Assembly: GCF_902506655.1 (NCBI RefSeq)
Contig: NZ_LR734812.1
Location: forward strand, 1-64,000
Direction: 5' to 3'
Length of the DNA: 64,000 nucleotides
Source: Marinoscillum sp. 108
GTDB lineage: Bacteria; Bacteroidota; Bacteroidia; Cytophagales; Cyclobacteriaceae
The position numbers and the translations under genes were made by a program. Every line of letters begins with the position of its first letter. Position 1 is the stretch's first letter. Below the pieces are notes generated by a model. The model ran no database searches. It was not told the DNA's origin and saw nothing but the letters and a program-made list of their open reading frames with translations. Below, one piece after another: positions 33,348 through 53,124 of this stretch.

Positions 33348-34187
33348 ATGAGAAAAACTAATTACCTAGCGGTGTTTACTCTGGCAGTGAGCATGCTATT
33401 TGTTTCTTGTGAACAGCAGAACGATGCTGTGGTTGCACAGGATGAAGTTTCTGAATCAGTACTTGCGGCCCTAACCAATGCTGGATTTGATGTAACACAA
33501 CAAGCACCCATCAAATTCGATGACGGTTATCTCGTAGAGGGAGATATCTACATCCCTGCAGCTGATCTTGCTTCTTTGAAAGAAGGCACAAGACTGGCCG
33601 TAGAAGAGCAGTACAGCACCAACAATCTGGTATCTACTGGCGGATCAAGAACCATCACCATGTACGCTCCTGAGGGCGGAAGAAATGGTTATAGCTCTGG
33701 AATGATCGCTGGCTTGGATTTGGCCATCTCTCGTTACAATGCTCAGAACCTGGCCATCTCTTTTCAGAGAGTGACTTCTTCAAGCAATGCTGACATTGTG
33801 ATGACGAGACTTAAAAAGGGAGAAGAGCGTCAAGGTATCCTTGGCTCAGCCGGATTTCCTACTTCTTCGGGTGATCCTTACGGCGAAATCAAAATGAGTG
33901 GTATTTTGGAGTCTTCTTACGGTCTGAGCACTGCAGGAATCGCTACCATCATCGCTCACGAAATGGGTCATTGCATAGGTTTCCGTCACACAGATTACTT
34001 CAACAGGAGTATTTCATGTGGAGGGTCTGCTTCAAATGAGGGAACCGCTGGTGTAGGTGCCAACCATATCCCTGGCACACCTACTGGCGCTACAGCAGCT
34101 GCCAAGTCCTGGATGCTTGCCTGTACAGATGGTGGTGACAGACCTTTCAACAACGACGACAGAACAGCACTTAATTACCTGTATTGA
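33348..34187 (+). CDS. M57-family (HEIGH-type) zinc metalloprotease lipoprotein, copy 1
   Basis: 279 aa. A lipoprotein signal ends at Cys21 (MLFVSC). After about 75 residues with the shared phrase VEGDIYIPAADL comes the peptidase domain with the metzincin-like motif HEMGHCIGFRH (His204, Glu205, His208, His214). It ends with conserved GVGANHIPGTPTGA, SWMLACTDGGDRPFNNDD and three cysteines. The family is known as dual-action HEIGH metallo-peptidase. It is probably anchored at the surface and may act on protein or on other bacteria; the target is unknown. A close paralogue follows after a hairpin. Confidence 0.9.
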   Translation: MRKTNYLAVFTLAVSMLFVSCEQQNDAVVAQDEVSESVLAALTNAGFDVTQQAPIKFDDGYLVEGDIYIPAADLASLKEGTRLAVEEQYSTNNLVSTGGSRTITMYAPEGGRNGYSSGMIAGLDLAISRYNAQNLAISFQRVTSSSNADIVMTRLKKGEERQGILGSAGFPTSSGDPYGEIKMSGILESSYGLSTAGIATIIAHEMGHCIGFRHTDYFNRSISCGGSASNEGTAGVGANHIPGTPTGATAAAKSWMLACTDGGDRPFNNDDRTALNYLY

Positions 34188-34209
34188 TATTTTTAGTATG
34201 ACATATTGG

Positions 34210-34239
34210 AAGGACATCTCAAAAGGATGTCCTTTCCGT
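34210..34239 (+). terminator. Hairpin between the two M57 genes
   Basis: A 9 bp stem (34210-34218 with 34226-34234) with a 7-base loop is followed by TCCGTTTTA. The T tract is weak, so it may act as a processing or partial termination site inside the pair. Confidence 0.5.
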
Positions 34240-34296
34240 TTTATAGCTATTCCAACTGGCTGATTTTACTTATTTAAACACTTAAATCTTACAACA

Positions 34297-35166
34297 ATGA
34301 AAAAGCTCAATTATTTCACAGCATGTATGCTTCTTGCAAGCGCAACATTCTTTGCATGTGAGTCCGATCAAGTGATGAAAGAAGAAACTGTTTCACCTGA
34401 AGTAATGGCCAGATTGACCGACCTTGGATTTGACGTCACCGACCAGGCTCCCCTGATTTTTGAAGAGGGTTATTTGGTAGAAGGAGATATTTATCTGACC
34501 GACGCTGATTTGGCTAGAATGAAAGCGGGAGTACGTGTACCTGTAGAGGAGCAGTACAGCACCAACAATCTGGTGACTACTGGTGGTAACAGAGTGATCA
34601 CCGTTTACGCTCCAGAGGAAAGCTCCGGAGGAGGAGGTAAAGGCAAAAAAGGTGGCGGTTCAGGAGGCTATAGCCCAGGAATGATCGCGGGCCTTGATTT
34701 AGCCATTTCCCGCTACAATGCTCAAAACCTGGAGATTTCTTTTCAAAGGGTCACTTCGTCTAGCAATGCGGATATCGTAATGACCAGACTGAACAAAAGA
34801 GATGAGCGAAGAGGTGTTTTGGGATCTGCCGGATTCCCAACAGCTTCTGGTGATCCTTACGGAGAAATCAAAATGAGTGGTGTGCTGGAGTCTTCTTATG
34901 GTTTGAGTACTGCTGGTATTGCTACCATTATTGCGCACGAGATGGGCCACTGTGTTGGTTTCCGTCATACAGATTATTTTGACAGAAGCATCTCTTGTGG
35001 AGGAGGAACCTCCAATGAAGGTGACGGTGGAGTAGGTGCCAACCACATCCCTGGCACGCCTACTGGAGCTACTGCTTCTGCTAAGTCCTGGATGCTGGCC
35101 TGTACAGATGGTGGTGACAGACCTTTCAACAACGATGACAGAACCGCACTGAATTACCTCTATTGA
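34297..35166 (+). CDS. M57-family zinc metalloprotease lipoprotein, copy 2
   Basis: 289 aa, a tandem paralogue of the gene at 33348. The lipobox is FFAC (Cys21). The catalytic motif is HEMGHCVGFRH (from His214). The last ~150 residues are nearly identical to copy 1, while the N-terminal third differs more. A Gly/Lys-rich loop of about 17 residues (GGGGKGKKGGGSGG) is inserted just before YSPGMIAGLDLAISRYNAQ; copy 1 has a short NGYSSG there. The duplication looks recent in the catalytic half or homogenised by conversion. A strong terminator follows. Confidence 0.9.
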   Translation: MKKLNYFTACMLLASATFFACESDQVMKEETVSPEVMARLTDLGFDVTDQAPLIFEEGYLVEGDIYLTDADLARMKAGVRVPVEEQYSTNNLVTTGGNRVITVYAPEESSGGGGKGKKGGGSGGYSPGMIAGLDLAISRYNAQNLEISFQRVTSSSNADIVMTRLNKRDERRGVLGSAGFPTASGDPYGEIKMSGVLESSYGLSTAGIATIIAHEMGHCVGFRHTDYFDRSISCGGGTSNEGDGGVGANHIPGTPTGATASAKSWMLACTDGGDRPFNNDDRTALNYLY

Positions 35167-38762: not shown

Positions 38763-39614
38763 ATGAAGAAAATATTATCGCTACTTGTATTCTTTTTTGT
38801 GGCCTTTGCCTTGATGGGGCAAGATGGCGAGTCCATCGATGAGCTTTTCAAGGTGAATTACGAAACTCCTCTGACTCTGGATATGAAAGCCGATCTGGAG
38901 AAAGACCCTCTGGATAAGGCGGAGACCAAGAAGAAGGAAAAGAAGAAAAACCCTAAAATCTACTATAAGATCAAAGCCAAGCGTGGTTTTGCCAAGCAGG
39001 GCTTTGGCGACCGAACCGTGGTGGAGCTTTTTTACTACCTCAAAGACAAAGACTATGAGGGTCCTGATCCATATGCCCGGGACTTCTACTGGTATGATTT
39101 TAAGAAAAAGAAGATCGTGAACTCCCTACGTGTGAAACGTGAGAATGCAGGGGTGCTGCACGGCCATTACGAAAAGAAGATGGGTGATCAGGTGATTGAG
39201 GAGGGCTACTTCTATAAGGGAATGAAGCACGGCCGATGGGTCAGGTACAACCGACACGATATCCTGCAAGAAAAGGAAATTTACTGGAAGGGGTGGCCGA
39301 AAGAGTCACTTTTGGCCTACTATGACTTTGATCGCACGCAGCTCAAGGAAATGATTCCGGTGCATTTTGGCGAAAGACAAGGGGAGTACTACGCTTACCA
39401 TCCGAACGGGAAGCTTGCTGTGGTGGGTCATTATCAGTTTGACCATCGGGTAGGTGTCTGGCGCGAATATTATGACAATGAGCGCGTGAAAAGAGAAGTG
39501 ACTTACCCGTTGGAGGCCTTTGATAAGAAAGCCAAACCCGTCATCACCAAAGAGTGGGACAGGGAGGGGCATATCATCTATGACCGCAAAAAGTACGAGG
39601 CGAGGGTCAACTAG
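38763..39614 (+). CDS. Exported MORN-like repeat protein
   Basis: 283 aa from the ATG at 38763 (signal peptide ending near LMGQDG). A Lys-rich segment follows, then MORN-variant repeats such as GYFYKGMKHGRWVRYN, GERQGEYYAYHPNGKLAVVG and DHRVGVWREYYDNERVK. These repeats are widespread in Bacteroidota envelope proteins (often annotated YwqK-like); they form beta-hairpin solenoids and have no assigned activity. The last 4 bases overlap the acyltransferase gene on the other strand. It follows the carboxypeptidase by 48 bases. Confidence 0.8.
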   Translation: MKKILSLLVFFFVAFALMGQDGESIDELFKVNYETPLTLDMKADLEKDPLDKAETKKKEKKKNPKIYYKIKAKRGFAKQGFGDRTVVELFYYLKDKDYEGPDPYARDFYWYDFKKKKIVNSLRVKRENAGVLHGHYEKKMGDQVIEEGYFYKGMKHGRWVRYNRHDILQEKEIYWKGWPKESLLAYYDFDRTQLKEMIPVHFGERQGEYYAYHPNGKLAVVGHYQFDHRVGVWREYYDNERVKREVTYPLEAFDKKAKPVITKEWDREGHIIYDRKKYEARVN

Positions 39615-40657
39615 AATTTGATGAGCGACTGACGCGCCATAGCCACCATAATGGCCGTAAAGGCAAACAGAAGTCCTGCCTCCCAGCCAATCCAGATAAC
39701 ACCAGCGGCAAAGAGAAACGACCACCATAAGATGTGGAGGAATGACCCTACCATGTACTTGATGGAGACGTAAAACACGTGATCTTTGATGCCACGGATG
39801 ATTTTGCTGAGGCCCAGCATTGGAGGCAGGTTGAATATGGATAATATCCAGATAAGCGCCTTTCGCACAGGCCCTTTTTTCATTGGCTCACGTGCTTCAA
39901 AGTGATCCCCCTCGGCCATGGTCTTGAGCTCATCAAATGACAGATGCTCATGTTTGGGCTGGAAAATCCAGTCTCTTTTCTGGGTATAGTCTGTTCCATC
40001 TTCAGCCAGAATCAGGGTCTTTTTCATCGCCTCGGCCAGGTCTTGCTTCAGCTGATTATATCCCTTTTGTTTATGCTCGTGGTACTGCGCCATGTAGTCC
40101 TCCAGCTCGATGGGCTCACCAAACTTGATCAGTACTTTCGCCAATGGACGGTAATGCGAAAAATAGTTGATGCCCGTGGGGATGATGTATATTTTGGTAT
40201 TGGGATCCACCTGCGCCCGTGCATCCAGCGCCAGTCGTGCAGTTCCTTTGGAGAGAGGTCTCAGATAATATTCTATTCCGTGATTTCCTTCCGGGAAAAT
40301 GAGGATCGCACGTTTCTCAGAGAGCATCCTGAAGCAGGTGTCAAATACTGCATCGTTTTGAGAAAGACTGGCAATTCCATCCCTAATGCGATAGATCGGC
40401 ATCATGTTCAGCGCCTTCAAAAAGGGCATGGACCATTTGTTAAACACATCAGATCGGGTGAGAAAAGAGACTGGCACTCTGTTGAATGTACCCACCAGCA
40501 CCGCATCCATGAAGGCACCCTGATGGTTGGGGGTGAATATTAGCGCTGCATCCCTGGGGATGTTTTTAGCGCCATAGATTTTTACCCCGCCAAAGAATAA
40601 TTTTAACCCAATCCAACTCGCAACCTTTACTAAATAATAAAACCAGTGTGCTCTCAT
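39611..40657 (-). CDS. 1-acylglycerol-3-phosphate O-acyltransferase family protein
   Basis: 348 aa. The PlsC-type acyltransferase domain lies in the N-terminal two-thirds, with the catalytic NHQGAFMD (NHxxxxD) and the substrate block FPEGNHGIEYYL. The C-terminal part has two to three hydrophobic segments (for example ALIWILSIFNLPPML and ILWWSFLFAAGVIWIGW), so it is an inner-membrane enzyme. It would acylate lysophosphatidic acid or a related lipid with acyl-CoA or acyl-ACP. Its ATG overlaps the stop of the upstream BASS symporter by 4 bases. It is the last gene of the long minus-strand run from 53124. Confidence 0.9.
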   Translation of the reverse strand: MRAHWFYYLVKVASWIGLKLFFGGVKIYGAKNIPRDAALIFTPNHQGAFMDAVLVGTFNRVPVSFLTRSDVFNKWSMPFLKALNMMPIYRIRDGIASLSQNDAVFDTCFRMLSEKRAILIFPEGNHGIEYYLRPLSKGTARLALDARAQVDPNTKIYIIPTGINYFSHYRPLAKVLIKFGEPIELEDYMAQYHEHKQKGYNQLKQDLAEAMKKTLILAEDGTDYTQKRDWIFQPKHEHLSFDELKTMAEGDHFEAREPMKKGPVRKALIWILSIFNLPPMLGLSKIIRGIKDHVFYVSIKYMVGSFLHILWWSFLFAAGVIWIGWEAGLLFAFTAIMVAMARQSLIKF

Positions 40658-41562
40658 TTTAATGCTACTGCTACCCTATAGTTCCACCAATAAGCCAGGG
40701 ACAAGCCTGACAGTATGTGCCAGATGCCCCACCAGGCGGCGACAATGGCCATGCCACCCAGGCCTTGAAAAAACGCAAATATAAGGAGTAATCCGAGTCC
40801 TGAATTTTGAATGCCGGTTTCTATGGCCAGAGAGCGTCTGTCGGCCTCTGGCAGCCCGAAAATTCTCCCCAACTGATATCCGGAAATGAGGGCGATGGCA
40901 TTGTGAAGAAAGACCAAAAAGACCACCAGATAAATGTAATTGAGGAAGATGTCCAGGTTGGCAGAAAAAGCCAGGATGACGATCGCTGCGAAAATAACGA
41001 TGGACCCAAAGTGCATATAAGGGTGAAGTTTTTCAGCTGTTTTAGGGTACTTGTGTCTGAAGCTCATGCCCAGCACGATTGGAATTCCCAAAATGGTAAC
41101 AATGGTTTTGAAGACATCCCAAAAGTCGAGGCTCACCTCAGTGAGTAGCGCGGCAGTGGGTGCATACATACTGGCCCAAAAAGACAGGTTGATGGGGGTC
41201 ATGAAGATGGCTAAAATGCTGGAAATGGCCGTAAGGCTGACTGAAAGGGCGATATTTCCACGAGCCAGGGCAGAGAAGAAGTTGGAGATGTTGCCGCCAG
41301 GGCAGGCCGCCACCATCATCATTCCCAGGGCGAAAGTGGGGTGCGGCTCCAGAATCCATACCAGCACAAACGTGAGAAAAGGCAGGATGATGAACTGTGA
41401 AAGCACTCCGGCCAGGGTGCCCAGCGGCTGTGCCAGCACCATTTTAAAATCAGCAGGAGTTAGTTTGAGCGCCACACCAAACATGATAAACCCTAAACTG
41501 AGGTTGAGGATAAAAATGTTTTGGTCTGAGAAGTTGATGGTGATATTGTCTATTGATTCCAT
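40654..41562 (-). CDS. Bile acid:sodium symporter (BASS) family transporter
   Basis: 302 aa with nine or ten hydrophobic segments. Conserved signatures include GFIMFGVALKLTPADF near the N-terminus, the unwound-helix block MMVAACPGGNISNFFSALARGN and GIQNSGLGLLLIFAFF in the second half. Bacterial members move organic acids such as pantoate, pyruvate or other carboxylates with sodium. It lies 39 bases downstream of the aldehyde dehydrogenase and overlaps the acyltransferase, so it may belong to the amine-catabolism operon as a carboxylate carrier. Confidence 0.92.
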   Translation of the reverse strand: MESIDNITINFSDQNIFILNLSLGFIMFGVALKLTPADFKMVLAQPLGTLAGVLSQFIILPFLTFVLVWILEPHPTFALGMMMVAACPGGNISNFFSALARGNIALSVSLTAISSILAIFMTPINLSFWASMYAPTAALLTEVSLDFWDVFKTIVTILGIPIVLGMSFRHKYPKTAEKLHPYMHFGSIVIFAAIVILAFSANLDIFLNYIYLVVFLVFLHNAIALISGYQLGRIFGLPEADRRSLAIETGIQNSGLGLLLIFAFFQGLGGMAIVAAWWGIWHILSGLSLAYWWNYRVAVALK

Positions 41563-41601: not shown

Positions 41602-42966
41602 CTACCCCCGCCAATGATACGCTTTGGGCTGGGTGAAAGCGCGAATGCCCATATACGAAAGGGTGGCCCCAAGCCCTGAGTTTTTTCTTCCCGACCAGGG
41701 TAAATTGGGGCTCACACGGTCGCAGCAGTTCCAGTATACGGTGCCAACATTCATTTGATCCAATACTTTGCGGGCTCTGGCCTCATCTTCGGAAAACACC
41801 GCTGCAGTCAGGCCATACGGGGTGTCTCGCATCAGATCGGTAGCTTCTTCATCGGAGCTTACTTTCTGGATTCCGATGATCGGCCCGAAAGATTCCTCCC
41901 GCATGAGTTCCATGGTGTGATTTACACCGGTAAGTACAGCCGGGCTCATAAAATATCCTTTTCTGCTGAGGGACTCTCCTCCCAGCACCAGTTGGGCACC
42001 TTTGGCAACAGCATCTTTAATTTGGTCTGAGAGGACCGCTATTTGCTGTGGCCTGGTCAGTGGCCCGGTGAAGGTGTCCTCCTCCATGGGATCACCCAGT
42101 TTGTAGGATTTTACCTCTTCCGTGAAGTGCTGCACAAACTCCTCATAAATGTCTTCCTGCACATAGATGCGCTCTACGGCGCAGCAGCTCTGACCATTGT
42201 TGTAGAAAGCACCTTCTGCCGCATTGATAGCCGCCTGCCGAACATCCACCACATCATCCATCACATAAAGGGGATCTTTGCCACCCAGCTCCAGCTGGAC
42301 TGGCACCAGCTTGTGTGCGACAGTTTGGGTGATGTGTACTCCGGTCTTGTATGAGCCCGTGAAAAAATACCCATCCAGATCGGCTTCCAGCAAGTACTGG
42401 CCCACAGCACCTGAGCCAATGACTACTTCAAACACATTGGCGGGGACTCCGGCTTCATGTAAGAGGGCTTTAAATTTTAATCCTGTCAGGGATGCAAACT
42501 CCGAAGGCTTATAGAGCACGGCATTGCCAGCCACCAGGGCATATAGGAATACATTGTAGCCTACATTGTAAGGAAAATTCCAGGCAGAAATGTTGGCAAT
42601 GACTCCCAGTGGCTCATGGGTGATGAACTCCACTGTAGCATCCTTTGGCGTGATCATTTCACTTTCCAGCCATTTTTCGGCATTGGTCTTCAGGTGCTGG
42701 ATTCGGCCCAGTGAGCCATTGATCTCATTGATGGATTGTGAGATGGGCTTGCCCGTTTCGCTGGTCAGAATCCGGGCCAGTTCGGGTTTGTTTTCCATGA
42801 CCAGTTCACCAAATCGCTCAATGATGGCCAGCCGCTCTTCCACACTATGATTTTGCCAGTCCTTTTGACCAGCCCTGAGTGCCTTGAGTTTTGCAGCGAC
42901 CGTAGCGGCCGTGTCTGGTGTCAGCACGGAGATGACTTCTTCCGTTGCAGGATTGATGACGTTCAT
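41602..42966 (-). CDS. NAD(P)-dependent aldehyde dehydrogenase
   Basis: 454 aa, slightly short for the family but complete. The cofactor site is ISAWNFPYNVGYN, the general-base Glu is in QLELGGKDP and the catalytic Cys in NNGQSCCAVERIY. It resembles the succinate-semialdehyde/gamma-glutamylaminobutyraldehyde type. It oxidises an aldehyde to the acid. The gene is 4 bases after a gamma-glutamyl amide hydrolase, which is 2 bases after an iron alcohol dehydrogenase, so the three form a tight catabolic unit. In that setting the substrate is likely the aldehyde made by the alcohol dehydrogenase. Confidence 0.94.
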   Translation of the reverse strand: MNVINPATEEVISVLTPDTAATVAAKLKALRAGQKDWQNHSVEERLAIIERFGELVMENKPELARILTSETGKPISQSINEINGSLGRIQHLKTNAEKWLESEMITPKDATVEFITHEPLGVIANISAWNFPYNVGYNVFLYALVAGNAVLYKPSEFASLTGLKFKALLHEAGVPANVFEVVIGSGAVGQYLLEADLDGYFFTGSYKTGVHITQTVAHKLVPVQLELGGKDPLYVMDDVVDVRQAAINAAEGAFYNNGQSCCAVERIYVQEDIYEEFVQHFTEEVKSYKLGDPMEEDTFTGPLTRPQQIAVLSDQIKDAVAKGAQLVLGGESLSRKGYFMSPAVLTGVNHTMELMREESFGPIIGIQKVSSDEEATDLMRDTPYGLTAAVFSEDEARARKVLDQMNVGTVYWNCCDRVSPNLPWSGRKNSGLGATLSYMGIRAFTQPKAYHWRG

Positions 42967-42970
42967 AGGG

Positions 42971-43729
42971 TTAGCTTTTCAGCGATTTTACATGTTCCAG
43001 AAAATAGAGATAAAGTTTGTCGGCATTGATGACCTGACTACCCAGGGTATGAGAAAACTCAGGATGCCACTGCACCCCCATTACCCAGCCGTCTGGGGCT
43101 TTGGTATAGCCAATGGCCTCAATCACCCCATCTTCAGGGCTTTCGGCCAGGACCTCCAGATTTTTGCCCAGGTTCTTGATGGATTGGTGGTGTACACTGT
43201 TCACCCGGGTGCTTTGGGCGTTTTTGTAGATTTTCGATAGGATCTTTTTTTCCGTAAAGGAAATTTCATGGGAGACGGTATCGTACTGTTCGGCATCACG
43301 GTGTACCAATACTTCTGGTCGCTGGGTTTTGGTGTCCTGATAGAGCGTGCCACCGAAATATACATTCATGAGCTGCATCCCACGGCAGATCCCCAGGATG
43401 GGTTTATCACTCTCCATAGCCAAATTCATGAGTTTGAGTTCATACTTGTCTCTTACGGGATCACCCTTCCAACGACCATTTTCTATCGGCTTTTCACCGT
43501 AAGACTCTGGTGCCAGATCAGTGCCGCCCTGGAAAATGAAGCCATCCATTTCCTCTACGAGTGGAAGGAGAAGTTTATCTTCCACATCGGGAATGAGTAC
43601 AGGGATCACTCCTTCTTTGGTAAGGTACCTGGCCATGTCATTTTCAAGATAACTCAGGGTCTTTGGTCCAAAAACCGAACGTTGGGGGTCGGGATAGAGA
43701 AAGCAGGCAGAAATGCCGATTTTTAACAT
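42971..43729 (-). CDS. Class I glutamine amidotransferase-like hydrolase (PuuD type)
   Basis: 252 aa from the ATG at 43729. The nucleophile elbow is GICRGMQLMN, the catalytic His/Glu are in VQWHPEFS, and the N-terminal FIFQGGTDLAPESYGEKP is typical of gamma-glutamyl-gamma-aminobutyrate hydrolases. PuuD releases glutamate from gamma-glutamyl amides and so ends glutamylated amine pathways. Here it is sandwiched between alcohol and aldehyde dehydrogenases (2- and 4-base gaps), which points to a gamma-glutamyl-protected amine or amino alcohol as the pathway intermediate. Confidence 0.9.
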   Translation of the reverse strand: MLKIGISACFLYPDPQRSVFGPKTLSYLENDMARYLTKEGVIPVLIPDVEDKLLLPLVEEMDGFIFQGGTDLAPESYGEKPIENGRWKGDPVRDKYELKLMNLAMESDKPILGICRGMQLMNVYFGGTLYQDTKTQRPEVLVHRDAEQYDTVSHEISFTEKKILSKIYKNAQSTRVNSVHHQSIKNLGKNLEVLAESPEDGVIEAIGYTKAPDGWVMGVQWHPEFSHTLGSQVINADKLYLYFLEHVKSLKS

Positions 43730-43731
43730 GC

Positions 43732-44874
43732 TCAAAGTGCATTTTGATACAAGGTATGAAAGTCATCCCAGCTCACAGGCTTGGGATTGTTGGGATGAGC
43801 AAAGTCTGCCACCGCCATGTTCGAAAGTTCTTCGATATGTTCTGGCCGTACGCCGATTTCACTCAGCTTGGTTGGCAGTTCCAGCCGCTGATTGAGCTCA
43901 AAGAGGAAATCTACCACGCGCGCTCCGTCTGCGTCCACCACACCCAGAAACTCCGCCATTTTATCAAATCGGGACTCCAAACCAGCATAGTTAAATTCCA
44001 TGCCATAGGGCAGATTCACGGCGTTGGCCAGTCCATGGTGAGTGTCCAGCAGACTGGAAAGCGGATGTGCCAGGCTATGCACCACACCCAGGCCTTTCTG
44101 GAAAGCTACGGCACCCATGAGGGATCCCAGGAGCATATTTGAGCGGGCTTCCAGGTCGGGGTGGTGTGTAGCTTTTTCTATGGATTTGGCTATGAGGGCC
44201 ATGCCCTCCAGGGCGATTCCATCGCACATGGGGTGGTAGTTTTTGGCCAGGTAAGCCTCCATGTTATGCGTGAGAGCATCCATACCCGTAGCGGCTGTGA
44301 CAAAGGGGGGCAACTCCATGGTGAGCATGGGATCGGCAAACACCTGTCGGGCCATCAGTTTAGGAGCAAAGAGGATTCTTTTTTTCTTGGAAATATCCTC
44401 CGAAATAATGGCACTGCGCCCCACTTCACTTCCGGTACCGGCCGTGGTGGGAACCGTCACAAAATAAGGCACTTCTTCGGTTACATACTGGTCGCCACCT
44501 ATCAGGTCATCATAGTCAAAGAGGGGCCGATGATGATGAATGCGGAGCACAATGGCCCGGGCTACATCCAATGCTACACCCCCGCCGATGCCCACAATAC
44601 AATCACATCCGGAGCGGTGATAATGATCTCCACCTTTGAGCACATCTGATTCGATCGGATTTTTGTGCATTTCTGTATGCACCTCAGGGGTCATGTTTTT
44701 TGACCTCAACCCATTCAGGATATCCTGAAAAAACTCCAGCTCAGATACCACTGGGTCCGTCACCAGAAGTGGATGACTAAGCCCCTGAGCCAGCAGGTGA
44801 TCGGGTAGTTCATCGATTACCCCGGCCCCAAACCGGATGGGCGTAGGAAAGTTAAAGTTCAGCCTGTTTTGCAT
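43732..44874 (-). CDS. Iron-containing (type III) alcohol dehydrogenase
   Basis: 380 aa. The NAD site is GIGGGVALDVARA, followed by TVPTTAGTGSEV. The metal-binding His residues appear in VVHSLAHPLSSLLDTHHGLANA. The enzyme interconverts a primary alcohol and aldehyde using Fe or Zn and NAD(P). It follows the ethanolamine-type permease by 45 bases and precedes the PuuD-like hydrolase by 2. If the permease brings in an amino alcohol, this enzyme would oxidise its hydroxyl group, probably after the amine has been protected. Confidence 0.93.
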   Translation of the reverse strand: MQNRLNFNFPTPIRFGAGVIDELPDHLLAQGLSHPLLVTDPVVSELEFFQDILNGLRSKNMTPEVHTEMHKNPIESDVLKGGDHYHRSGCDCIVGIGGGVALDVARAIVLRIHHHRPLFDYDDLIGGDQYVTEEVPYFVTVPTTAGTGSEVGRSAIISEDISKKKRILFAPKLMARQVFADPMLTMELPPFVTAATGMDALTHNMEAYLAKNYHPMCDGIALEGMALIAKSIEKATHHPDLEARSNMLLGSLMGAVAFQKGLGVVHSLAHPLSSLLDTHHGLANAVNLPYGMEFNYAGLESRFDKMAEFLGVVDADGARVVDFLFELNQRLELPTKLSEIGVRPEHIEELSNMAVADFAHPNNPKPVSWDDFHTLYQNAL

Positions 44875-44919
44875 AAAGGAAACTCCGTGATGTGATGGAA
44901 CGAAATGACATAGATCAAA

Positions 44920-46242
44920 TTAATTCTTTTTCTCTGTAAAGAGAAACCATAAGTAAGCGGCCAACATAATCAGCCCGTAAATCAATGCCAGCTTCAGGTT
45001 ATAAATGGTCATAGCCACCAGCGCCAGACTGGCTATGATGAGGGCACAGGCTGGGAAAAAGGGGTAAAGTGGCACCTTAAACGGACGAGCAAGGTCGGGC
45101 TCATTTTTGCGCAGCGCAAAAAATGAGAACATGGATACTATATACAAAGTCAAAGCCCCAAAGCAGGCAATGGTGATGATTTCGCCTGTTTTTCCGGTTA
45201 GAAGGGCCACAATCCCTATGAGCATATTTACCACCAGGGCATTGGCCGGAGTGAGGGTTTTAGGATGCACTTTGCCCAGCGATTTGGGGATATAGCCTAC
45301 CCGGCCAAACTCGAACGTGGAACGCCCTGCCGCCAGGATGATCCCGTGAAAGGAAGCTACCAGACCAAACAGGCCTACGGTGATCAGCAGGTGATACAGC
45401 AGGTGGCTGTCGCCGACTATTTTGGCCAGAGCCAAAGGCAAAGGAGAGTCGGAAGCTTCAGTGCTCCCTGGAGGGTAGACAATAGATTCCCAGCCATCCA
45501 CACCGACTGCCGACACGAAGGTGAGCAGACACAGCACCACCAGTGTGAAAATGGCAGAGCCAAAGCCAATCAAAATACTTCGTTGTGGGTTTTTGGCTTC
45601 TTCAGCAACATTGGCCACTCCCTCTATGGCCAGGAAAAACCAGATGGCAAATGGGATGGCTGCGAACGCCCCCTGAAACCCATTGGGTAGGGCATTGAGG
45701 GTGAGGTTTTCAACTTTCATGTGAGGCAGGCAAACCCCTGCAAAGATCAACAGCTCCAGCACGGCAAGGACGGTGATGACCAGCTCGAAGATGGCGGCAG
45801 CCCTCACACCGAGGATATTCAGGCCGGTAAACAGCAGGTAAGCCAGAATGGCAATGTAGAGCGTATCGACCTGCGGGAAGAAAATATTGAAGTAGGCACC
45901 AATGGCTGCGGCTATGGCTGGAGGTGCAAAGATGAACTCTACATTCTGAGCCATACCGGCCAGAAATCCCAGTTTCTTACCCAGGGCTCTGTCCGCATAA
46001 TCAAAAGCTCCTCCGGCTTTGGGAATGGCACAAGCAAGCTCCGTGTAGCTAAAGGTGAAGGTGAGGTACATGATGATAATGAAGAACGTGGCGATAGCCA
46101 GCCCCAGCGTGCCCCCCTCAGCCAGGCCAAGGTTCCAGCCAAAGTACATGCCGGAGATCACATAGCCTACGCCCAGTCCCCAGAGCATCAGCGGACCTAA
46201 TGTTTTCTTAAGCTGGGGAGTCTGAGGATTTTGGTCTGCCAT
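44920..46242 (-). CDS. eat: APC-family ethanolamine permease
   Basis: 440 aa with twelve hydrophobic segments. The N-terminal block LGVGYVISGMYFGWNLGLAEGG is the signature of ethanolamine permeases within the amino acid-polyamine-organocation superfamily, followed by TELACAIPKAGGAFDYA and GFLAGMAQNVEFIFAPPA. It sits in the inner membrane and imports ethanolamine or a close amino alcohol. No ethanolamine ammonia-lyase (EutBC) or microcompartment gene lies in the window, so a different route of use is implied. It is 77 bases downstream of the transglutaminase gene on the same strand. Confidence 0.88.
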   Translation of the reverse strand: MADQNPQTPQLKKTLGPLMLWGLGVGYVISGMYFGWNLGLAEGGTLGLAIATFFIIIMYLTFTFSYTELACAIPKAGGAFDYADRALGKKLGFLAGMAQNVEFIFAPPAIAAAIGAYFNIFFPQVDTLYIAILAYLLFTGLNILGVRAAAIFELVITVLAVLELLIFAGVCLPHMKVENLTLNALPNGFQGAFAAIPFAIWFFLAIEGVANVAEEAKNPQRSILIGFGSAIFTLVVLCLLTFVSAVGVDGWESIVYPPGSTEASDSPLPLALAKIVGDSHLLYHLLITVGLFGLVASFHGIILAAGRSTFEFGRVGYIPKSLGKVHPKTLTPANALVVNMLIGIVALLTGKTGEIITIACFGALTLYIVSMFSFFALRKNEPDLARPFKVPLYPFFPACALIIASLALVAMTIYNLKLALIYGLIMLAAYLWFLFTEKKN

Positions 46243-46319
46243 AGCCTGAAATTTATTCTAAAATAGTCAGAGACGGTCAGGTTTGGCGGGTGGATTAGAC
46301 AGAATTATTGAATAAGATC

Positions 46320-47201
46320 CTACACATTATCCAGATTGCGTACATCCACGCTGACCTTCATGGTTTGTTTACCCACACTGTAGACAATCCCTTTGAGGGG
46401 CGTAATGTCTGCAAAGTCTCTGCCTACGGCCACCCGCACGTGCTTGTCATCCACCAGCAGGTTGTTGGTGGCATCAAACTCCACCCATTCCAACTCTGGA
46501 ATGTAGAGGGCTACCCAGGCATGAGATGCATCTGCACCTACCAGTTTAGGCTTGCCTGGAGGAGGCAATGTTTCTATATAGCCACTCACATACCTGGCGG
46601 CCAGATTGATGGAGCGCAGGCAGGCCAGGGCAAAGTGAGCAAAGTCCTGACAAACCCCTTTTTTAGTTTCAAAAACCTTTTCAAGGGGAGTACTGATGTC
46701 TGTAAAGCCAGGAGTGAAACTAAAATCATGAAAGATCCTGGAGTTGAGTTCCATCATGGCCTCCATGATGGGTCGGCCGGGGGTGAAGGACTGAAGGGTA
46801 TAGGCTTTAATCCCTTCTACGAAATGCACATGCTTGGACTCCAGATAAAACTGGCGAATGTCATTCAGGGCATCCGTGGTTCGGAGCCATTTCACCACTT
46901 CTTCCCACGGGCTGGTGCTCGCCGGGTCCACTCCCATCCATTTTGGTGATTTCAGAGTTACTCTGGTTCTGGAGGTTACCGTAAGTTTTTTGTGCGCCCT
47001 TTCTATGGAAAAATAGAGGTACTGATTGTCAAAAAAATCCTTTCGCTCGCCCAGAAAGCTGGGTTCCGGATCTATCTCATAACTGCTTTCCTCTACGGTC
47101 TGGCACTCTGAGTCTTTTGGCAGCTGCACCATGATGTTGTGACACAGAGAGGCAGTGTTTTGATAAATGTAGTCGGTAATGTGGGTGACCTGATATCTCA
47201 T
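46320..47201 (-). CDS. Transglutaminase-like cysteine protein (bacterial COG1305 type)
   Basis: 293 aa. An N-terminal beta domain (about 1-85, starting YQVTHITDYIYQN) precedes a transglutaminase core with Cys184 in GVCQDFAH, His227 in ASHAWVALY and Asp243 in EFDATNN. There is no signal peptide. Such proteins are consistently encoded beside circularly permuted ATP-grasp/alpha-E proteins; they may act as amide hydrolases or transferases on a peptide-like product rather than as protein crosslinkers. The ATG overlaps the stop of the ATP-grasp gene by 4 bases. Confidence 0.9.
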   Translation of the reverse strand: MRYQVTHITDYIYQNTASLCHNIMVQLPKDSECQTVEESSYEIDPEPSFLGERKDFFDNQYLYFSIERAHKKLTVTSRTRVTLKSPKWMGVDPASTSPWEEVVKWLRTTDALNDIRQFYLESKHVHFVEGIKAYTLQSFTPGRPIMEAMMELNSRIFHDFSFTPGFTDISTPLEKVFETKKGVCQDFAHFALACLRSINLAARYVSGYIETLPPPGKPKLVGADASHAWVALYIPELEWVEFDATNNLLVDDKHVRVAVGRDFADITPLKGIVYSVGKQTMKVSVDVRNLDNV

Positions 47202-49744
47202 ATTTCCGGGAGGAGAGAGGTTTGAATCATGTGGTAGCGATTGCTGGTATGGCTGAAATACTTTTGGTAGATCAGGTCTGAAGTGTCGCTCAGTAGCGCG
47301 GTGATTTCATCCAGAAAGGTTTTCAAATGAGTGTAATTCCCTTTCTTTCCATCGGCAGTGGCCAGTAGGTCTATGTCGCACAGGCGAATTTTGGTCACAG
47401 CCTCCAGCAGTTTTTTCCGTGCTGGGCTGAGAAACTCCTCCACCTCCTGATCCTGCGGAGGCATACTACTTAGGTGTTTTTCTATCCGCATGATCTGGTA
47501 GATGACAGATCGGGGATTCTCCTCGTGCAAAATGAGCAGACTGAGCACACCTTTCATTTCCATCACAGATCGATAGCGATACCGATAGGTGACCAGACTT
47601 TCGCTACAGCGGAGGGTATCCTCCATCAGGGATTTGTCGGTCTCTGATCCAAAGCGCTTGCCAAGCATCGACCCCAGGACCGTACAATTGTTGATGGCGG
47701 ACTCTATGAATCGTCCCACATTCAGTAAATGCCACGTAGGTTCCCTGGTCATGTTGTCAATGTTGAGCCCGTAGAATGCCATGAGCTTTATGACCATACT
47801 ATCCAGCCCGTCATATATCTGAGTAAGATCGGAGCCCATTTTTTTCATTCGGGAAAGCTCCTCAGAAATGCTGTCGAGGATTCTCCAGGTATCCAGACTC
47901 AGCCGGTCACGCACGGCATAGCCATTAGATAGAAAAGCATTGAGTGAGTAGGCCAGACTTCCTACACGACTGGAGTCGAGGACCAGCGAAATCAGTTCTT
48001 CTTCGGGATGTCTGAGGATTTTTTTGTCTTTAAATCCCGGCTGTGTACCGGTAAGTTTGGTCAGGGTTCTTAGCAGGGTGGATACTACAGGGTTTTCTTT
48101 AATATGAATGTCTTCATCTACCTCATTGTAGGTCATGAGCACCATCCTCATCAGACGCACCGTGTATACGGAGCGCTCCATGTATCTCCCGATCCAGAAA
48201 AGGTGTTCACCAGTTCGGCTGGGAAGCACGCTTTTGAGTTCGGGCCGAAGACCAGCCTCTGTTACAGGTGTGACTTTGGATTCCTCCCGCTTGCCGAGTA
48301 CCCAGGTGTCTTTGCTGATGCCCCCCTGCTGGTTGGATACAATAAAGGCTCCTTTTTGCGCAGAGCTACGAGAAAGGCCACCCGGCATCACCGAGTACGT
48401 GCTGCTTTGAGTATCCGCCACAATGTAGCTTCTGAACACCGCGTTTCTCGCCTCCATCTTCTGATTGATCCAGGACGGAGTAGTGGAGAAGTTGACCAAC
48501 TCCTGCCCCACGTAGAGGTAGGGGCTCCTGTCTATTTGTGCTCTTAGCTGGTTTAGTTCCTCTTTGGAAAGGGAGCCTCCGTATATCGACCGGTTATCTG
48601 CACTCCGATAAATCTTGCGGATAATCAGCGTCTCCAGGTGATCGAGCACATATTTTTTCTCTTTGTCCTGCCCACACCACCACGTGGCCACAGAGGGGAG
48701 GATGAGTTCTTCACCCAGGATATGTCGGGAAAGCCTTGGCAAAAAGGCCATCAAACCAGGATTTTCAAGTATTCTACAACCCAGGGGATTGATCACGATC
48801 ACCTTTTTTTGGCGCACGGCCTCCATGAGTCCCACTACGCCCAGGTGTGAATTGCTTCGAAACTCAAGGGGATCACAAAACACATCATCTACCCGCCGGA
48901 TGATCACGTCTACTTTTTCTAATCCTTTGATGGTTTTTAGCCATACGTACCCATCACTCACGGTGAGGTCTTCACCCAGGGCCAGTGTGAAGCCCATGAA
49001 AGAAGAAAGGTAGGCGTGCTCAAAATAAGTTTCGTTGGTTGGCCCGGGGGAGAGGAGCACAATTCGCGGGTTCTCTTTGTTTCGGGATGAAAGATTGACC
49101 AGTGTATTTTTGAGGGTCTGATAGTAGGTAGAAATCTTCCTGACCTCATTTTCTCTGATCAGATCCGGGAAAACACGTGTCATGGCTGCCCGGTTTTCAA
49201 AGGTATAGCCTGCACCTGACGGGGCATCTGTTCGGTCGTGTAGTACCCACATTTTACCATCTGGTCCGCGAGCCAGGTCCGCTGCGTACTGGATCAGCTG
49301 CTGTTCGCCGTCCAGCTTGATTTTATCGACCTGCCGCAAAAATCCCTGATGATTGTAGATCAGCTCGAAGGGAATGAACCCGTCTTTGATGAGGCTTCGG
49401 CTCCCGTAGATATCCGAAAGGATATGATTGAGGAGCTCGGCGCGCTGAATAAGCCCTTTTTCTATCACAGCCCAGTCCTGTCCACTGAAAATCATCGGAA
49501 CCGGATCGAGCGTCCAGGGCCTGTTCATCCCTTCCGGATCGCCATAGATGTTATAGGTCACACCATTTTCACGGAGCTGCCTGCTCACCTCATCATGATA
49601 CTGACCGAGCTTTTCAGGGCCGAGCCGGTCATAGTACATGGCCAGTTTTTGCCACTGTGAGGAGACTTTATTTTCAGATGTAGCCAGCTCGTCCAGAAAC
49701 GGCTCATTGTTGAACATTCGATCAACAAGATATGATTCGATCAT
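47198..49744 (-). CDS. Fused circularly permuted ATP-grasp / alpha-E protein
   Basis: 848 aa. Residues about 1-490 are a circularly permuted ATP-grasp domain (COG2308 type), with ARGPDGKMWVLHDRTDAPSGAGY, VIIRRVDDVFCDPLEF, VINPLGCRILENPGLMAFLP and SVMPGGLSR. From about residue 515 (SRTGEHLFWIGRYMERS) to the end it is an all-helical alpha-E domain (COG2307 type). In many bacteria these are two separate genes. ATP-grasp enzymes join a carboxylate to an amine through an acyl phosphate. The genomic group was predicted to make peptides or amide conjugates, but no product is known. It overlaps the transglutaminase at 46320 and lies 35 bases after the DUF2126 gene. Confidence 0.92.
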   Translation of the reverse strand: MIESYLVDRMFNNEPFLDELATSENKVSSQWQKLAMYYDRLGPEKLGQYHDEVSRQLRENGVTYNIYGDPEGMNRPWTLDPVPMIFSGQDWAVIEKGLIQRAELLNHILSDIYGSRSLIKDGFIPFELIYNHQGFLRQVDKIKLDGEQQLIQYAADLARGPDGKMWVLHDRTDAPSGAGYTFENRAAMTRVFPDLIRENEVRKISTYYQTLKNTLVNLSSRNKENPRIVLLSPGPTNETYFEHAYLSSFMGFTLALGEDLTVSDGYVWLKTIKGLEKVDVIIRRVDDVFCDPLEFRSNSHLGVVGLMEAVRQKKVIVINPLGCRILENPGLMAFLPRLSRHILGEELILPSVATWWCGQDKEKKYVLDHLETLIIRKIYRSADNRSIYGGSLSKEELNQLRAQIDRSPYLYVGQELVNFSTTPSWINQKMEARNAVFRSYIVADTQSSTYSVMPGGLSRSSAQKGAFIVSNQQGGISKDTWVLGKREESKVTPVTEAGLRPELKSVLPSRTGEHLFWIGRYMERSVYTVRLMRMVLMTYNEVDEDIHIKENPVVSTLLRTLTKLTGTQPGFKDKKILRHPEEELISLVLDSSRVGSLAYSLNAFLSNGYAVRDRLSLDTWRILDSISEELSRMKKMGSDLTQIYDGLDSMVIKLMAFYGLNIDNMTREPTWHLLNVGRFIESAINNCTVLGSMLGKRFGSETDKSLMEDTLRCSESLVTYRYRYRSVMEMKGVLSLLILHEENPRSVIYQIMRIEKHLSSMPPQDQEVEEFLSPARKKLLEAVTKIRLCDIDLLATADGKKGNYTHLKTFLDEITALLSDTSDLIYQKYFSHTSNRYHMIQTSLLPEI

Positions 49745-49779
49745 ACCAGTAAAATTATCCTTTTCCTGAATATAAAAGA

Positions 49780-52700
49780 CTACTTCACGCTTTTGTATCT
49801 TCTGAGGTCCATGGTGTGTGGAAACTCCGGGTTCACTACCTCACCGGTTGCTTCATAGTTGGTGAGGATATTCACTTTGGTGATAAATCTGCCTACCGAA
49901 GTGGGTTGCTCCACTGTGGGCTCCACCAGGTTGATAGAATGTCCAAAGTCAAAAAATCTGGAGATCCTTCGTGACTCTGCCTCAAAGCTATTGACCGGGA
50001 AGGTGTTGTAATTTCTACCTCCTGGATGGGCCACATGGTATTTGCAGGCGGCCACAGATTTTTTTGTCCAGGTGTCGTATAGGTCTATGACCAGCGGAGT
50101 ATCCACACCCAGGGTGGGGTGGAGCGCAGATGGTGGCTGCCATGCCCGATAGCGAATACCCGACACATACTCTCCCTGCACGCCAGTGTTTTTCAGTGGA
50201 ATCCTCAGGCCATTGCACATGAGCTGGTAGCGCGAGTCTGTCATCCCCGAAATTTTCACTTGCAGTCGCTCCAGAGAGCTGTCCACAAAGCGGGCTGTAC
50301 CTGAGCTGGACATTTCCTCACCCAGTACATGCCAGGGCTCTATCGCCATTTTCAGTTCGATATGGATGTCATCTACCTGTAGCTCCCCAACAAATGGAAA
50401 GCGGAAACTGAAAAACGGATCGAACCATGAAATGTCAAAGTCATACCCGGCATTGCGCAGGTCATTGACCACCTCGGTCATGTCTTTATAGCAATAGTGA
50501 GGCAGCAAAAACCGGTCGTGGAGCTGCGTGCCCCACCTGACCAGCTTGTGGTCATATGGGTTTTTCCAAAACCAACTAAGCAGGGCTCTGATCAGCAGAA
50601 ACTGCACCATCCCCATGCGGTAGTGTGGTGGCATATCGAAGCCCCGAAACTCCAAAATTCCCAAACGCCCCGTGCTGGAGTCTGGCGAGTAAAGTTTGTC
50701 TATACAGAACTCCGCCCGATGGGTATTGCCTGTGATGTCCACCAGCAGGTTTCTGAAAATGCGATCTACGAGCCAATATGGCACATCGTCTTCTTTGTGG
50801 TTGGGTACTTGCTGAAAAGCCAACTCTAGTTCATAGAGGATATCATCCCGGCCTTCATCCACACGTGGGGCCTGACTGGTGGGCCCAATAAATTGCGTGG
50901 AGAACAGATAGGAAAGTGCCGGATGGTGCTGCCAGTAGGTGATAAAACTCTTCAACACATCGGGCCTGCGAAGGATTGGACTTTCTGCGGGCTTGCTGCC
51001 CCCAATGGTTACATGATTTCCGCCACCAGTGCCGGTGTGCCTGCCATCCAGGTTAAATTTTTCAGTAGTCAGGCGCGACTCGCGGGCTTTGTCATAAAGG
51101 ATTTCGTAGTTGCTGAGGAGCTCTCGCCATGTTTTGGCCGGATGGATATTCACCTCTATCACCCCCGGATCGGGTGTGATCATGAGCTTTTGCACCCGGT
51201 TGTCGGCAGGCGGGTCATACCCTTCTATCAAAACCGGAATTTGCAGCTTTTCGGCTGTTCGCTCTACAGCCCCTACCAGGTCCAGGTAGTGCTCAAAATG
51301 AGTGACCGGCGGGAAAAAGACAAAGAGTTTGCCGTCCCGAATTTCAGTAAGCAATGAGGTTTTAAAGATTTTGTCGGAGTTGTTGAACGGCCTGCTGTCG
51401 GGTTCGAAAGAAGCAGCTTCACCCGATAAGGGCAAGGCGTCGGTTTCTTCAAAAAGGTCTCGCTCCGGACGGATTTCCTCGTCTTCCGGGTCGGTATATT
51501 GGATAGAGTCCAGTGGTAGCCGGAGCCCGATGGGTGAGTTTCCAGGTACAAGGAATAGGTTCTTTTTGCGAAAGCTCCACTTGCAGCTCTGCCAGGATGT
51601 GTGCTCCAAATCCCATGACAAAGGCACGGCATAGCCCACAGGTTTGTCCAGTCCATCTTGTAGCAGCTGGGCCAGTTTTTGCCTTTCCAGTGGAGATTTC
51701 AGGTCTATTTTAAGGAGATCCACATTCACGGGCACTTTGCTTTCCTCCCAGATGAAATAGAAGGGGTCTTCATAGGCCGGAGTGATATTGGTCTTGTCAA
51801 CATTCAGTTCGGAGGTGAGTGCTTCTATGAATTTAGCGGCATCTGTGTGTTTGAGGTCATAATCTTTGGAGATATCTGCCAGCAGGGCGTCATTGTGCCA
51901 GATGGGTTGGCCATCCAGGCGCCAGTAGCAGGCCAGTTTCCAGCGAGGCAGTGGCTCTCCGGGATACCATTTACCTTGTCCGTACTGCATCAACGCTCCC
52001 TTTCCATAGGATTCTTTCAGTTGGTGAAATAGCTGATTGGAGAGCTTTCTCTTGTGCTCACCATCTGCTTCGGAGTTCCATTCAGGGGCGTCGTTGTTAT
52101 CTATGGACACAAAGGTGGGCTCGCCACCCATTGTCATTTTCACGTTGTTTGCATTCAGATCCGCATCTACCTGATCTCCTACTGCCATGATCTGGGCCCA
52201 TTGCTCTTCGGAATAGGGCTTAGTCACCCTGGGTGTCTCTTCAATTCGTTTGACGGTATTCTCAAAGTAAAATTCTGTTTTGGCGGGTTCTGCAAATCCT
52301 GAAATGGGGGCTGCGCTTTGCGGCTCTGGTGTGCAGGCGAGGGGTATGTGACCTTCTCCGGCAAAGAGACCTGAAGTGGAGTCCAACCCTACCCACCCGG
52401 CACCTGGCAGGTACACTTCCGCCCAGGCATGCAGGTCGGTGAAGTCTTCTTCGGTGCCCGAAGGTCCGTCCAGGGCTTTTTGGTCAGCTTTGAGCTGGAT
52501 GAGGTAGCCAGATACAAACCGGGAGGCCAGTCCGACATGCCGCAGGAGCTGCACAAGAACCCATGAAAAGTCACGGCAAGAACCGGAAGCCAGCTGGAGT
52601 GTTTCCTCACAGGATTGTACCCCGGGCTCCATGCGTATGTTATAGGAGAGCGCCTGATTGACCATCTGATTGAGGGCGACCAGATAATCCACGGTGTTCA

Positions 52701-53124
52701 TCTCTTCCAGTTTTTTCTCTTTGGCGCGTGTCACCAGTTCCATCAGGAGGGGCCCATTTTCAGTGACCTCCAGGTAGGGAGAGAGTTGCCTTTTCAGGTA
52801 TTCTTCATACTGAAAAGGAAATTTTTCCGCATACTCTTCAATGAAAAAGTCAAACGGATTGATCACCACCATGTCAGCAATCACCTCAACGTCTACTTCA
52901 AAGTGATCTACCTTTTCTGGAAAGACAATCCGCGCCAGGTAGTTGCCAAAGGGGTCCTGCTGCCAGTTGATGAAATGCCCCTCCGGCTTGATGTTGAGCG
53001 AATACCCCTTGATGAAAGTACGCGAATGCGGAGCAGGGCGAAGACGGATCACTTGCGGGCTCAGCTCGATGTGCTTGTCGTAGGTGTATTTGGTGTAATG
53101 CCTGACTGCTACTTTTATGGACAT
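49780..53124 (-). CDS. Transglutaminase-DUF2126 fusion protein
   Basis: 1114 aa. Residues about 1-290 are a transglutaminase-like module with its N-terminal beta domain and the triad Cys183 (SGSCRDFSW), His232 (LHAWAEVY) and Asp248 (GLDSTSG). The remaining ~800 residues are DUF2126, with marks such as VKMTMGGEPTFVS, GQGKWYPGEPLPRW, GGGNHVTIGG and EFRGFDMPPH; parts of it recall glutamine-synthetase/amidoligase folds. It is cytoplasmic. This is the first gene of the ATP-grasp module, and a nested dyad plus a -7 box lie upstream. Its partner domains suggest a role in making or breaking amide bonds. Confidence 0.92.
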   Translation of the reverse strand: MSIKVAVRHYTKYTYDKHIELSPQVIRLRPAPHSRTFIKGYSLNIKPEGHFINWQQDPFGNYLARIVFPEKVDHFEVDVEVIADMVVINPFDFFIEEYAEKFPFQYEEYLKRQLSPYLEVTENGPLLMELVTRAKEKKLEEMNTVDYLVALNQMVNQALSYNIRMEPGVQSCEETLQLASGSCRDFSWVLVQLLRHVGLASRFVSGYLIQLKADQKALDGPSGTEEDFTDLHAWAEVYLPGAGWVGLDSTSGLFAGEGHIPLACTPEPQSAAPISGFAEPAKTEFYFENTVKRIEETPRVTKPYSEEQWAQIMAVGDQVDADLNANNVKMTMGGEPTFVSIDNNDAPEWNSEADGEHKRKLSNQLFHQLKESYGKGALMQYGQGKWYPGEPLPRWKLACYWRLDGQPIWHNDALLADISKDYDLKHTDAAKFIEALTSELNVDKTNITPAYEDPFYFIWEESKVPVNVDLLKIDLKSPLERQKLAQLLQDGLDKPVGYAVPLSWDLEHTSWQSCKWSFRKKNLFLVPGNSPIGLRLPLDSIQYTDPEDEEIRPERDLFEETDALPLSGEAASFEPDSRPFNNSDKIFKTSLLTEIRDGKLFVFFPPVTHFEHYLDLVGAVERTAEKLQIPVLIEGYDPPADNRVQKLMITPDPGVIEVNIHPAKTWRELLSNYEILYDKARESRLTTEKFNLDGRHTGTGGGNHVTIGGSKPAESPILRRPDVLKSFITYWQHHPALSYLFSTQFIGPTSQAPRVDEGRDDILYELELAFQQVPNHKEDDVPYWLVDRIFRNLLVDITGNTHRAEFCIDKLYSPDSSTGRLGILEFRGFDMPPHYRMGMVQFLLIRALLSWFWKNPYDHKLVRWGTQLHDRFLLPHYCYKDMTEVVNDLRNAGYDFDISWFDPFFSFRFPFVGELQVDDIHIELKMAIEPWHVLGEEMSSSGTARFVDSSLERLQVKISGMTDSRYQLMCNGLRIPLKNTGVQGEYVSGIRYRAWQPPSALHPTLGVDTPLVIDLYDTWTKKSVAACKYHVAHPGGRNYNTFPVNSFEAESRRISRFFDFGHSINLVEPTVEQPTSVGRFITKVNILTNYEATGEVVNPEFPHTMDLRRYKSVK

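Follow-up and report, generated by a model that had tools for sequence, protein, structure and literature searches.

A run of seven minus-strand genes in Marinoscillum sp. 108 raises the question of whether an ATP-grasp ligase and two transglutaminase-like proteins belong to one pathway with the ethanolamine permease, two dehydrogenases and PuuD-like hydrolase encoded directly downstream of them. The run lies in a 64,000-nt stretch at the start of contig 5 (positions 1 to 64,000 of NZ_LR734812.1; "the window" below), in a genome of 5.2 Mb that is 99.7% complete. An original prediction for this DNA had tentatively joined all seven genes in one system, but we found the run to be two neighboring units: an operon for an ethanolamine permease (Eat), an iron alcohol dehydrogenase (FeADH), the PuuD-like hydrolase and an aldehyde dehydrogenase (ALDH), and a DUF2126/ATP-grasp/transglutaminase module. 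Judging from sequence comparisons, it is quite probable that the four operon genes, together with a separately encoded glutamine-synthetase-like (GS) ligase, make up a Bacteroidota form of the ethanolamine gamma-glutamylation pathway, and that the module, a unit of its own, ended up upstream of eat in this one species.

The Eat operon and its proposed route

The seven minus-strand reading frames are all open at the coordinates first reported (Table 1), and the gaps between them (35, −4, 77, 45, −4 and 4 bases) bear out the range of −4 to 77 bases given in the original prediction. Its gene labels also held, as Pfam agreed with all seven and NCBIfam additionally named the permease. The cluster contains the features predicted for such a pathway, namely alcohol and aldehyde dehydrogenases (Pfam Fe-ADH and Aldedh), a Peptidase_C26 hydrolase, and an amino acid permease that scored 466.6 bits against the NCBIfam model "ethanolamine permease" (TIGR00908; cut-off 381.75). 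FeADH residues D199, H203, H270 and H280, which we take to be metal ligands, were invariant across nine aligned homologues. ALDH carries ELGGKD at 226 and NGQSCC at 257, and the PuuD-like hydrolase, with 3fij and PuuD 6vtv as nearest solved relatives, carries ICRG at 116 and HPEF at 224, all presumably catalytic motifs. The permease gene was present in all six sampled genomes of the genus, this genome included, and the Eat-FeADH-PuuD-ALDH operon was retained in each of the five congeners.

In the proposed route, Eat would import ethanolamine, the GS-like ligase encoded elsewhere would couple it to glutamate using ATP, FeADH would oxidize the alcohol of gamma-glutamylethanolamide to the aldehyde, ALDH would convert this to gamma-glutamylglycine, and the PuuD-like hydrolase would split the product into glutamate and glycine. 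We infer the substrate, each of these reactions and the service of the unlinked GS to the operon. The course from Eat through the two dehydrogenases and PuuD to glutamate and glycine had already been laid out in the original prediction, and that part stands, in that the gene set fits and is conserved together, whereas its assignment of the ligase is not supported. No match to EutB, of the EutBC ethanolamine ammonia-lyase route, was found in this genome.

Table 1. Positions of the genes and other features discussed (window coordinates unless a genome position is given)
Feature	Position	Strand	Evidence or remark
PlsC acyltransferase, continuation of the run	39611-40657	-	Pfam
SBF transporter, continuation of the run	40654-41562	-	Pfam
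Aldehyde dehydrogenase, 454 aa; probable conversion of gamma-glutamyl aldehyde to gamma-glutamylglycine	41602..42966	-	Pfam Aldedh
PuuD-like hydrolase of the class I amidotransferase fold, 254 aa, starting at TTG; probably cleaves gamma-glutamylglycine	42971..43735	-	Peptidase_C26
Iron-containing alcohol dehydrogenase, 380 aa; probably acts on gamma-glutamylethanolamide	43732..44874	-	Pfam Fe-ADH
Eat-type ethanolamine permease, 440 aa; probable importer	44920..46242	-	TIGR00908, AA_permease_2
77-base gap between module and eat	46243..46319	-	Leader at about 46252-46268
Transglutaminase-like protein, 293 aa; module	46320..47201	-	Pfam transglutaminase
Circularly permuted ATP-grasp and alpha-E fusion, 848 aa; module	47198..49744	-	Pfam CP_ATPgrasp_2 and Alpha-E
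Transglutaminase-DUF2126 protein, 1114 aa; module	49780..53124	-	Pfam Bact_transglu_N, Transglut_core and DUF2126
GS-like ligase, 447 aa; outside the window	G000:C1:1611834-1613174		PF00120-family homologue of operon GS

A probable ligase encoded away from the operon

The original prediction was right that the run itself holds no GS-type ligase, and it had named a GlnA4-like ligase elsewhere as an observation that would speak against its own proposal. A candidate was found: the genome encodes one GS of the operon family, unlinked to the operon and with a predicted substrate, which is 58-66% identical to eight GS copies located in operons or paired with Eat. Apart from it, a single PF00120 gene turned up in the genome; it encodes a 336 aa GlnII-type synthetase, presumably the housekeeping enzyme, and lies two genes from a protein taken by eye for an ammonium transporter.

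We searched 194 genomes of the order Cytophagales with the permease of the window, which gave 49 matches at 1e-60, and read the surroundings of 40 of these in stretches of up to 20 kb. Four loci (L045-L048) had the order permease, a 451-452 aa protein, FeADH, PuuD-like hydrolase and ALDH, and a fifth (L055) had the same order with no ALDH called. The extra protein at L045 is GS-like (PF00120), with copies at the other four loci that are 65-93% identical to it. Nine more genomes of the order (L115-L119, L121-L123 and L125) showed GS-FeADH-PuuD-ALDH with Eat not directly adjacent. The ligase gene sits between eat and the alcohol dehydrogenase gene in most relatives having both, and is absent from that place in Marinoscillum.

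A wider scan of named genomes with FeADH covered the best 80 of 135 relatives, with up to 8 kb per side and less at contig ends; by title, all were Bacteroidota except one metagenome-assembled genome labeled Rickettsiales. Near these 80 FeADH genes we observed PuuD-like genes at 72 loci, ALDH at 68, GS at 52 and Eat at 48, with all five genes on one strand at 41. Eat and FeADH without a nearby GS occurred at only five loci, which appear to be the five Marinoscillum congeners. Altogether, 28 loci had no GS near FeADH; the five congeners and 15 more of these were checked genome-wide, and every genome gave one GS match, which in seven of the 15 lay directly beside an Eat gene. Counted differently, GS was present with a single match in all five congeners and in 19 of 19 further FeADH genomes (15 of them picked because FeADH had no GS nearby). 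Since each tested FeADH genome has one member of the family, and given the contrast within the family of the window described below, we read the Marinoscillum GS as the ligase of the operon.

Two loci from these searches stand apart. Marinoscillum sp. MHG1-6 (L185:5307-9906 onward), unlike the six-genome genus set of the window, carries a full Eat-GS-FeADH-PuuD-ALDH operon, and its single GS is the operon copy. The metagenome-assembled genome titled "Rickettsiales bacterium" (L182, PBTY01000003.1) has the operon with proteins 70-85% identical to those of Marinoscillum, and its title looks mislabeled.

Co-occurrence across the order gave a similar picture, using presence cut-offs of E up to 1e-110 for FeADH of the window type and 1e-100 for GS; because related genomes are not independent, probabilities serve only as a guide. 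Among the 194 genomes, carriers numbered 20 for FeADH, 35 for GS, 38 for DUF2126 and 37 for EutB (one EutB below the family cut-off). All 20 FeADH genomes had GS, two had DUF2126 (3.9 expected) and none had EutB; counted by genus, the 11 FeADH genera gave 11 with GS (19/94 overall), two with DUF2126 (21/94 overall) and none with EutB (21/94 overall, p 0.12). In the family of the window, GS and FeADH were either jointly present (2) or jointly absent (14) in all 16 sampled genomes. The absence of any genome with both FeADH and EutB is as expected of two routes for one substrate. When the other genomes with a permease were divided at 57% identity to that of the window, a line chosen after the data were seen, the 22 with the more similar permease included 15 with GS, 13 with FeADH and five with EutB, and the 26 with the less similar one included four, none and 17, respectively.

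The neighboring module

The module proteins belong to the ATP-grasp, alpha-E and transglutaminase families in adjacent genes, which we take to be COG2308, COG2307 and COG1305. The nearest solved relative of the ATP-grasp/alpha-E protein is 3n6x, a "putative glutathionylspermidine synthase", no solved relative of the DUF2126 protein was found by sequence, and a search of the open-licence literature found no paper containing the word DUF2126. In congeners G195, G196 and G198 the three genes lie together on a different contig from Eat. DUF2126 was not found in G194 (M. furvescens) or G197; The single PF14403 match of G197 falls in an open frame of 485 codons that is like the second copy in Marinoscillum sp. 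108. In M. furvescens the PF14403 ATP-grasp family gave no match, yet both the operon and GS are present there. The second circularly permuted ATP-grasp gene of Marinoscillum sp. 108 is a 482-codon open frame at G000:C1:746587-747708, with similar genes in four congeners and none in G194.

Conserved linkage in relatives, by which the original prediction proposed to check its idea, was seen at none of the 80 FeADH loci, in none of the five congeners and at none of the 20 DUF2126 loci that were fetched (from 37 other genomes of the order with DUF2126); the 80 FeADH loci had no match to DUF2126, ATP-grasp, transglutaminase, EutBC or the gene trio described below. Eat and DUF2126 occur together in 16 genomes, and in all except that of the window either separate contigs carry them or over 500 kb lies between the two. 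At loci L160 and L161, the same FtsX-like gene as in the window stands upstream of Eat with two opposite-strand reading frames between, and in the window the module occupies that interval. Because six genomes of one genus separate the two, adjacency to the module is not functional evidence here, and the ATP-grasp genes beside the operon seem to be accidental neighbors in this one species.

The 77-base gap and the flanking genes

In an alignment read by eye, the leader in the gap between module and eat looks like the DNA that precedes Eat in four of the five congeners. An operon that has kept a promoter of its own would show such a likeness, and the leader may perhaps be that retained promoter. 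In this gap, where the original prediction had asked for a promoter and terminator that would split the run, a consensus scan listed no minus-strand terminator. It did report a sigma70-like site matching 9 of 12 positions at 46333-46304, with 12 such sites in the region against 15.4 in shuffles; the sigma70 consensus used is presumably unsuited to Bacteroidota.

The run extends beyond the ends first given, continuing on the same strand into the SBF transporter gene (gap 39) and then the PlsC acyltransferase gene (gap −4). Both are retained downstream of the operon in four of the five congeners, and the fifth has PlsC alone. The FtsX-like gene lies on the same strand, 134 bases upstream of the seven genes. 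Elsewhere in the window, at 33348-35166, we noted tandem reading frames of 279 and 289 aa that look alike by eye and carry an HEMGH motif as in zinc metalloproteases.

A second context for the probable ligase gene

The Marinoscillum GS gene is followed by a gene for a kinase-like protein and then one for a HAD-IIA phosphatase-like protein. This trio (L074:9234-12482, on G000:C1 outside the window) was also seen at L131, L133, L134 and L173-L177. At L095 and L102, where the loci end early, the kinase-like gene alone was seen, and G089 and G032 have GS with its gene surroundings outside the view. EutB was found in 11 of 13 trio genomes (one below the cut-off) compared with 37 of 194 overall, or in five of seven genera not counting the sub-threshold match, and DUF2126 in nine of 13 compared with 38 of 194. 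The kinase-like protein by itself (L074:10581-11627) had no Pfam or NCBIfam match at 0.001, and a profile search of the PDB gave nothing better than E 0.35; within its family, five of eight members had weak homoserine-kinase matches (best 0.00075) and one had an APH match (0.0081).

We examined the origin of this GS with trees. A quick tree of 72 chosen GS, in which 20 were listed out of 52 FeADH loci that have a GS match, placed the Marinoscillum GS beside two pathway GS with a support of 83. A more careful tree, with 12 near-duplicates dropped and four proteobacterial outgroup rows added, had a weak backbone and gave L283, one of the outgroup rows, an absurd branch length of 10; rooted on the other three rows, it showed nine trio GS among operon GS. 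When the trio GS were constrained to form a single clade, the resulting tree outscored the free search and was not rejected (p-AU 0.725).

Alternative explanations

The original prediction had the idea that the module and the four catabolic genes form one system, in which the module would either join glutamate to ethanolamine or store the product, and this idea has in its favor the shared strand and gaps of at most 77 bases, as well as the unlinked co-occurrence of DUF2126 with EutB (16/38 genomes against 7.2 expected; 10/21 by genus) and with trio-type GS (9/13 against 2.5 expected; 5/7 by genus) among the 194 genomes. We nevertheless consider it very improbable, and rejected the ATP-grasp protein as the ligase on the congener and co-occurrence evidence: the genome has a GS of the operon family, the module is linked to the operon in no relative examined, two congeners hold the operon without DUF2126, M. 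furvescens does so without a PF14403 match, and FeADH and DUF2126 occur together no more often than expected. The pathway reading with GS as the ligase has points weighing against it as well. The genome-wide check covered 20 of the 28 loci at which no GS lies near FeADH, and none of GS, PuuD-like hydrolase, FeADH and ALDH passes an NCBIfam equivalog cut-off. Another 12 genomes of the order that lack this FeADH have GS paired with the kinase-like gene, in most cases together with the HAD gene and mostly alongside EutB, and trio GS may have a job of its own; by the trees, the Marinoscillum GS may be either a relocated operon GS or an old trio GS. It is conceivable that this GS serves a pathway of the trio and that the operon uses another ligase or no dedicated one, as the single-clade tree would allow. 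We regard this as improbable, given that every tested FeADH genome retains one GS of the family, linked or unlinked, that GS and FeADH come and go together in the window's family, that the operon is conserved in all congeners, and that the rooted tree, for all its weak backbone and misplaced outgroup row, sets nine trio GS among operon GS. A speculative variant, to which we give a small chance, is that the trio is a gene set of Cytophagales, so far undescribed and related to ethanolamine or phosphoethanolamine, whose ligase doubles for the Eat operon in Marinoscillum; if true, DUF2126 amidoligases would have a remote metabolic tie to amino-alcohol glutamylation.

The remaining points against ethanolamine glutamylation concern the substrate. 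Identity of the Marinoscillum GS is only 33% to its counterpart in a Paracoccus denitrificans cluster (see below), about 40% to proteins annotated as gamma-glutamylisopropylamide synthetase, and 46-48% to plasmid-encoded GS from clusters without Fe-ADH in view, one further record lacking annotation at that place. This low identity to the Paracoccus protein, combined with closer plasmid and isopropylamide-type GS, makes another amine possible, so that the same pathway logic would act on a different amino alcohol or amine, such as 3-aminopropanol or an alcohol derived from an alkylamine. Several amines have known GS-like ligases, the nearest homologues on plasmids stand in clusters with other transporters and oxidases or carry the isopropylamide annotation, and neither FeADH nor ALDH scores above an equivalog cut-off. 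We still hold a different substrate to be unlikely, as the permease passes the curated TIGR00908 model, EutB is found with the less similar permeases (17/26) rather than the more similar ones (5/22; post hoc line), and FeADH and EutB share no genome.

On the plasmids in question, from Rhodobacteraceae bacterium M382, Rhizobium leguminosarum and Burkholderia vietnamiensis (L280, L281 and L282), GS and ALDH genes occur with a hydrolase gene and varied transporters or oxidases, and these are perhaps sibling glutamylation pathways.

Comparison with described systems

The E. coli Puu pathway glutamylates putrescine, oxidizes the product and releases glutamate with a PuuD-type hydrolase. The Marinoscillum genes follow this logic, but the proteins score below the equivalog cut-offs for PuuD (106.5 bits; cut-off 266), PuuC (248.6 bits; cut-off 850) and PuuA, the gamma-glutamylputrescine synthetase (214.1 bits for GS; cut-off 650).

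For ethanolamine itself, the available passages on Phaeobacter describe an operon whose proteins rise in cells grown on phosphatidylethanolamine; their annotations are ethanolamine gamma-glutamylase, gamma-glutamylglycine amidohydrolase and two dehydrogenases, and the genes are called related to a pathway demonstrated in Chromohalobacter and Agrobacterium (PMC10132767). The Marinoscillum set resembles it in having a putative ligase, two dehydrogenases, a predicted gamma-glutamylglycine amidohydrolase and a probable ethanolamine transporter. A cluster of this make-up on a plasmid of Paracoccus denitrificans is a row of RpiR, N-formylglutamate amidohydrolase, TRAP transporter, GS, ALDH and Fe-ADH genes, to which the Marinoscillum ALDH and FeADH are 36% and 38% identical. 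Compared with the Phaeobacter/Paracoccus type, Marinoscillum has the Eat permease in place of a TRAP transporter, no adjacent RpiR regulator and an unlinked ligase gene; its hydrolase is PuuD-like (Peptidase C26) and not of the N-formylglutamate-amidohydrolase type of Paracoccus.

Streptomyces GlnA4 makes gamma-glutamylethanolamide, with the later steps proposed in the passages available of that report (PMC6529630). As in Marinoscillum, where the candidate GS is unlinked, the S. coelicolor cluster is described there with a GS-like synthetase, an ALDH, a glutamine-amidotransferase-type gene and, in some species, a permease; the differences are that the first oxidation is assigned to a short-chain dehydrogenase instead of an iron alcohol dehydrogenase, and that the permease is said in the same passages to have no similarity to Eat (PMC6529630). 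A review, in the sections available, counts Flavobacterium among the bacteria that use ethanolamine and cites Streptomyces as a case of gamma-glutamylation (PMC9397018), and in the open-licence literature we found no paper describing a Bacteroidota form of the pathway.

The module resembles Anbu operons, in which ATP-grasp, alpha-E and transglutaminase-like genes occur together according to the portion of the paper available (PMC6376114). Here, by contrast, one protein combines ATP-grasp with alpha-E, the set also includes a transglutaminase-DUF2126 protein, and no Anbu gene was found among the neighboring window proteins scanned, the genome as a whole not having been searched for it.

Significance

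The chemistry first proposed for this locus is likely right, and an ATP-grasp protein as its ligase is not supported. The pathway is already published from other bacteria, and the Bacteroidota form differs in its transporter and in its hydrolase family. Our results point to a widespread ethanolamine gamma-glutamylation in Bacteroidota that would combine import by an Eat permease with oxidation by an iron alcohol dehydrogenase and cleavage by a PuuD-type hydrolase, and for which a candidate ligase gene can now be named.

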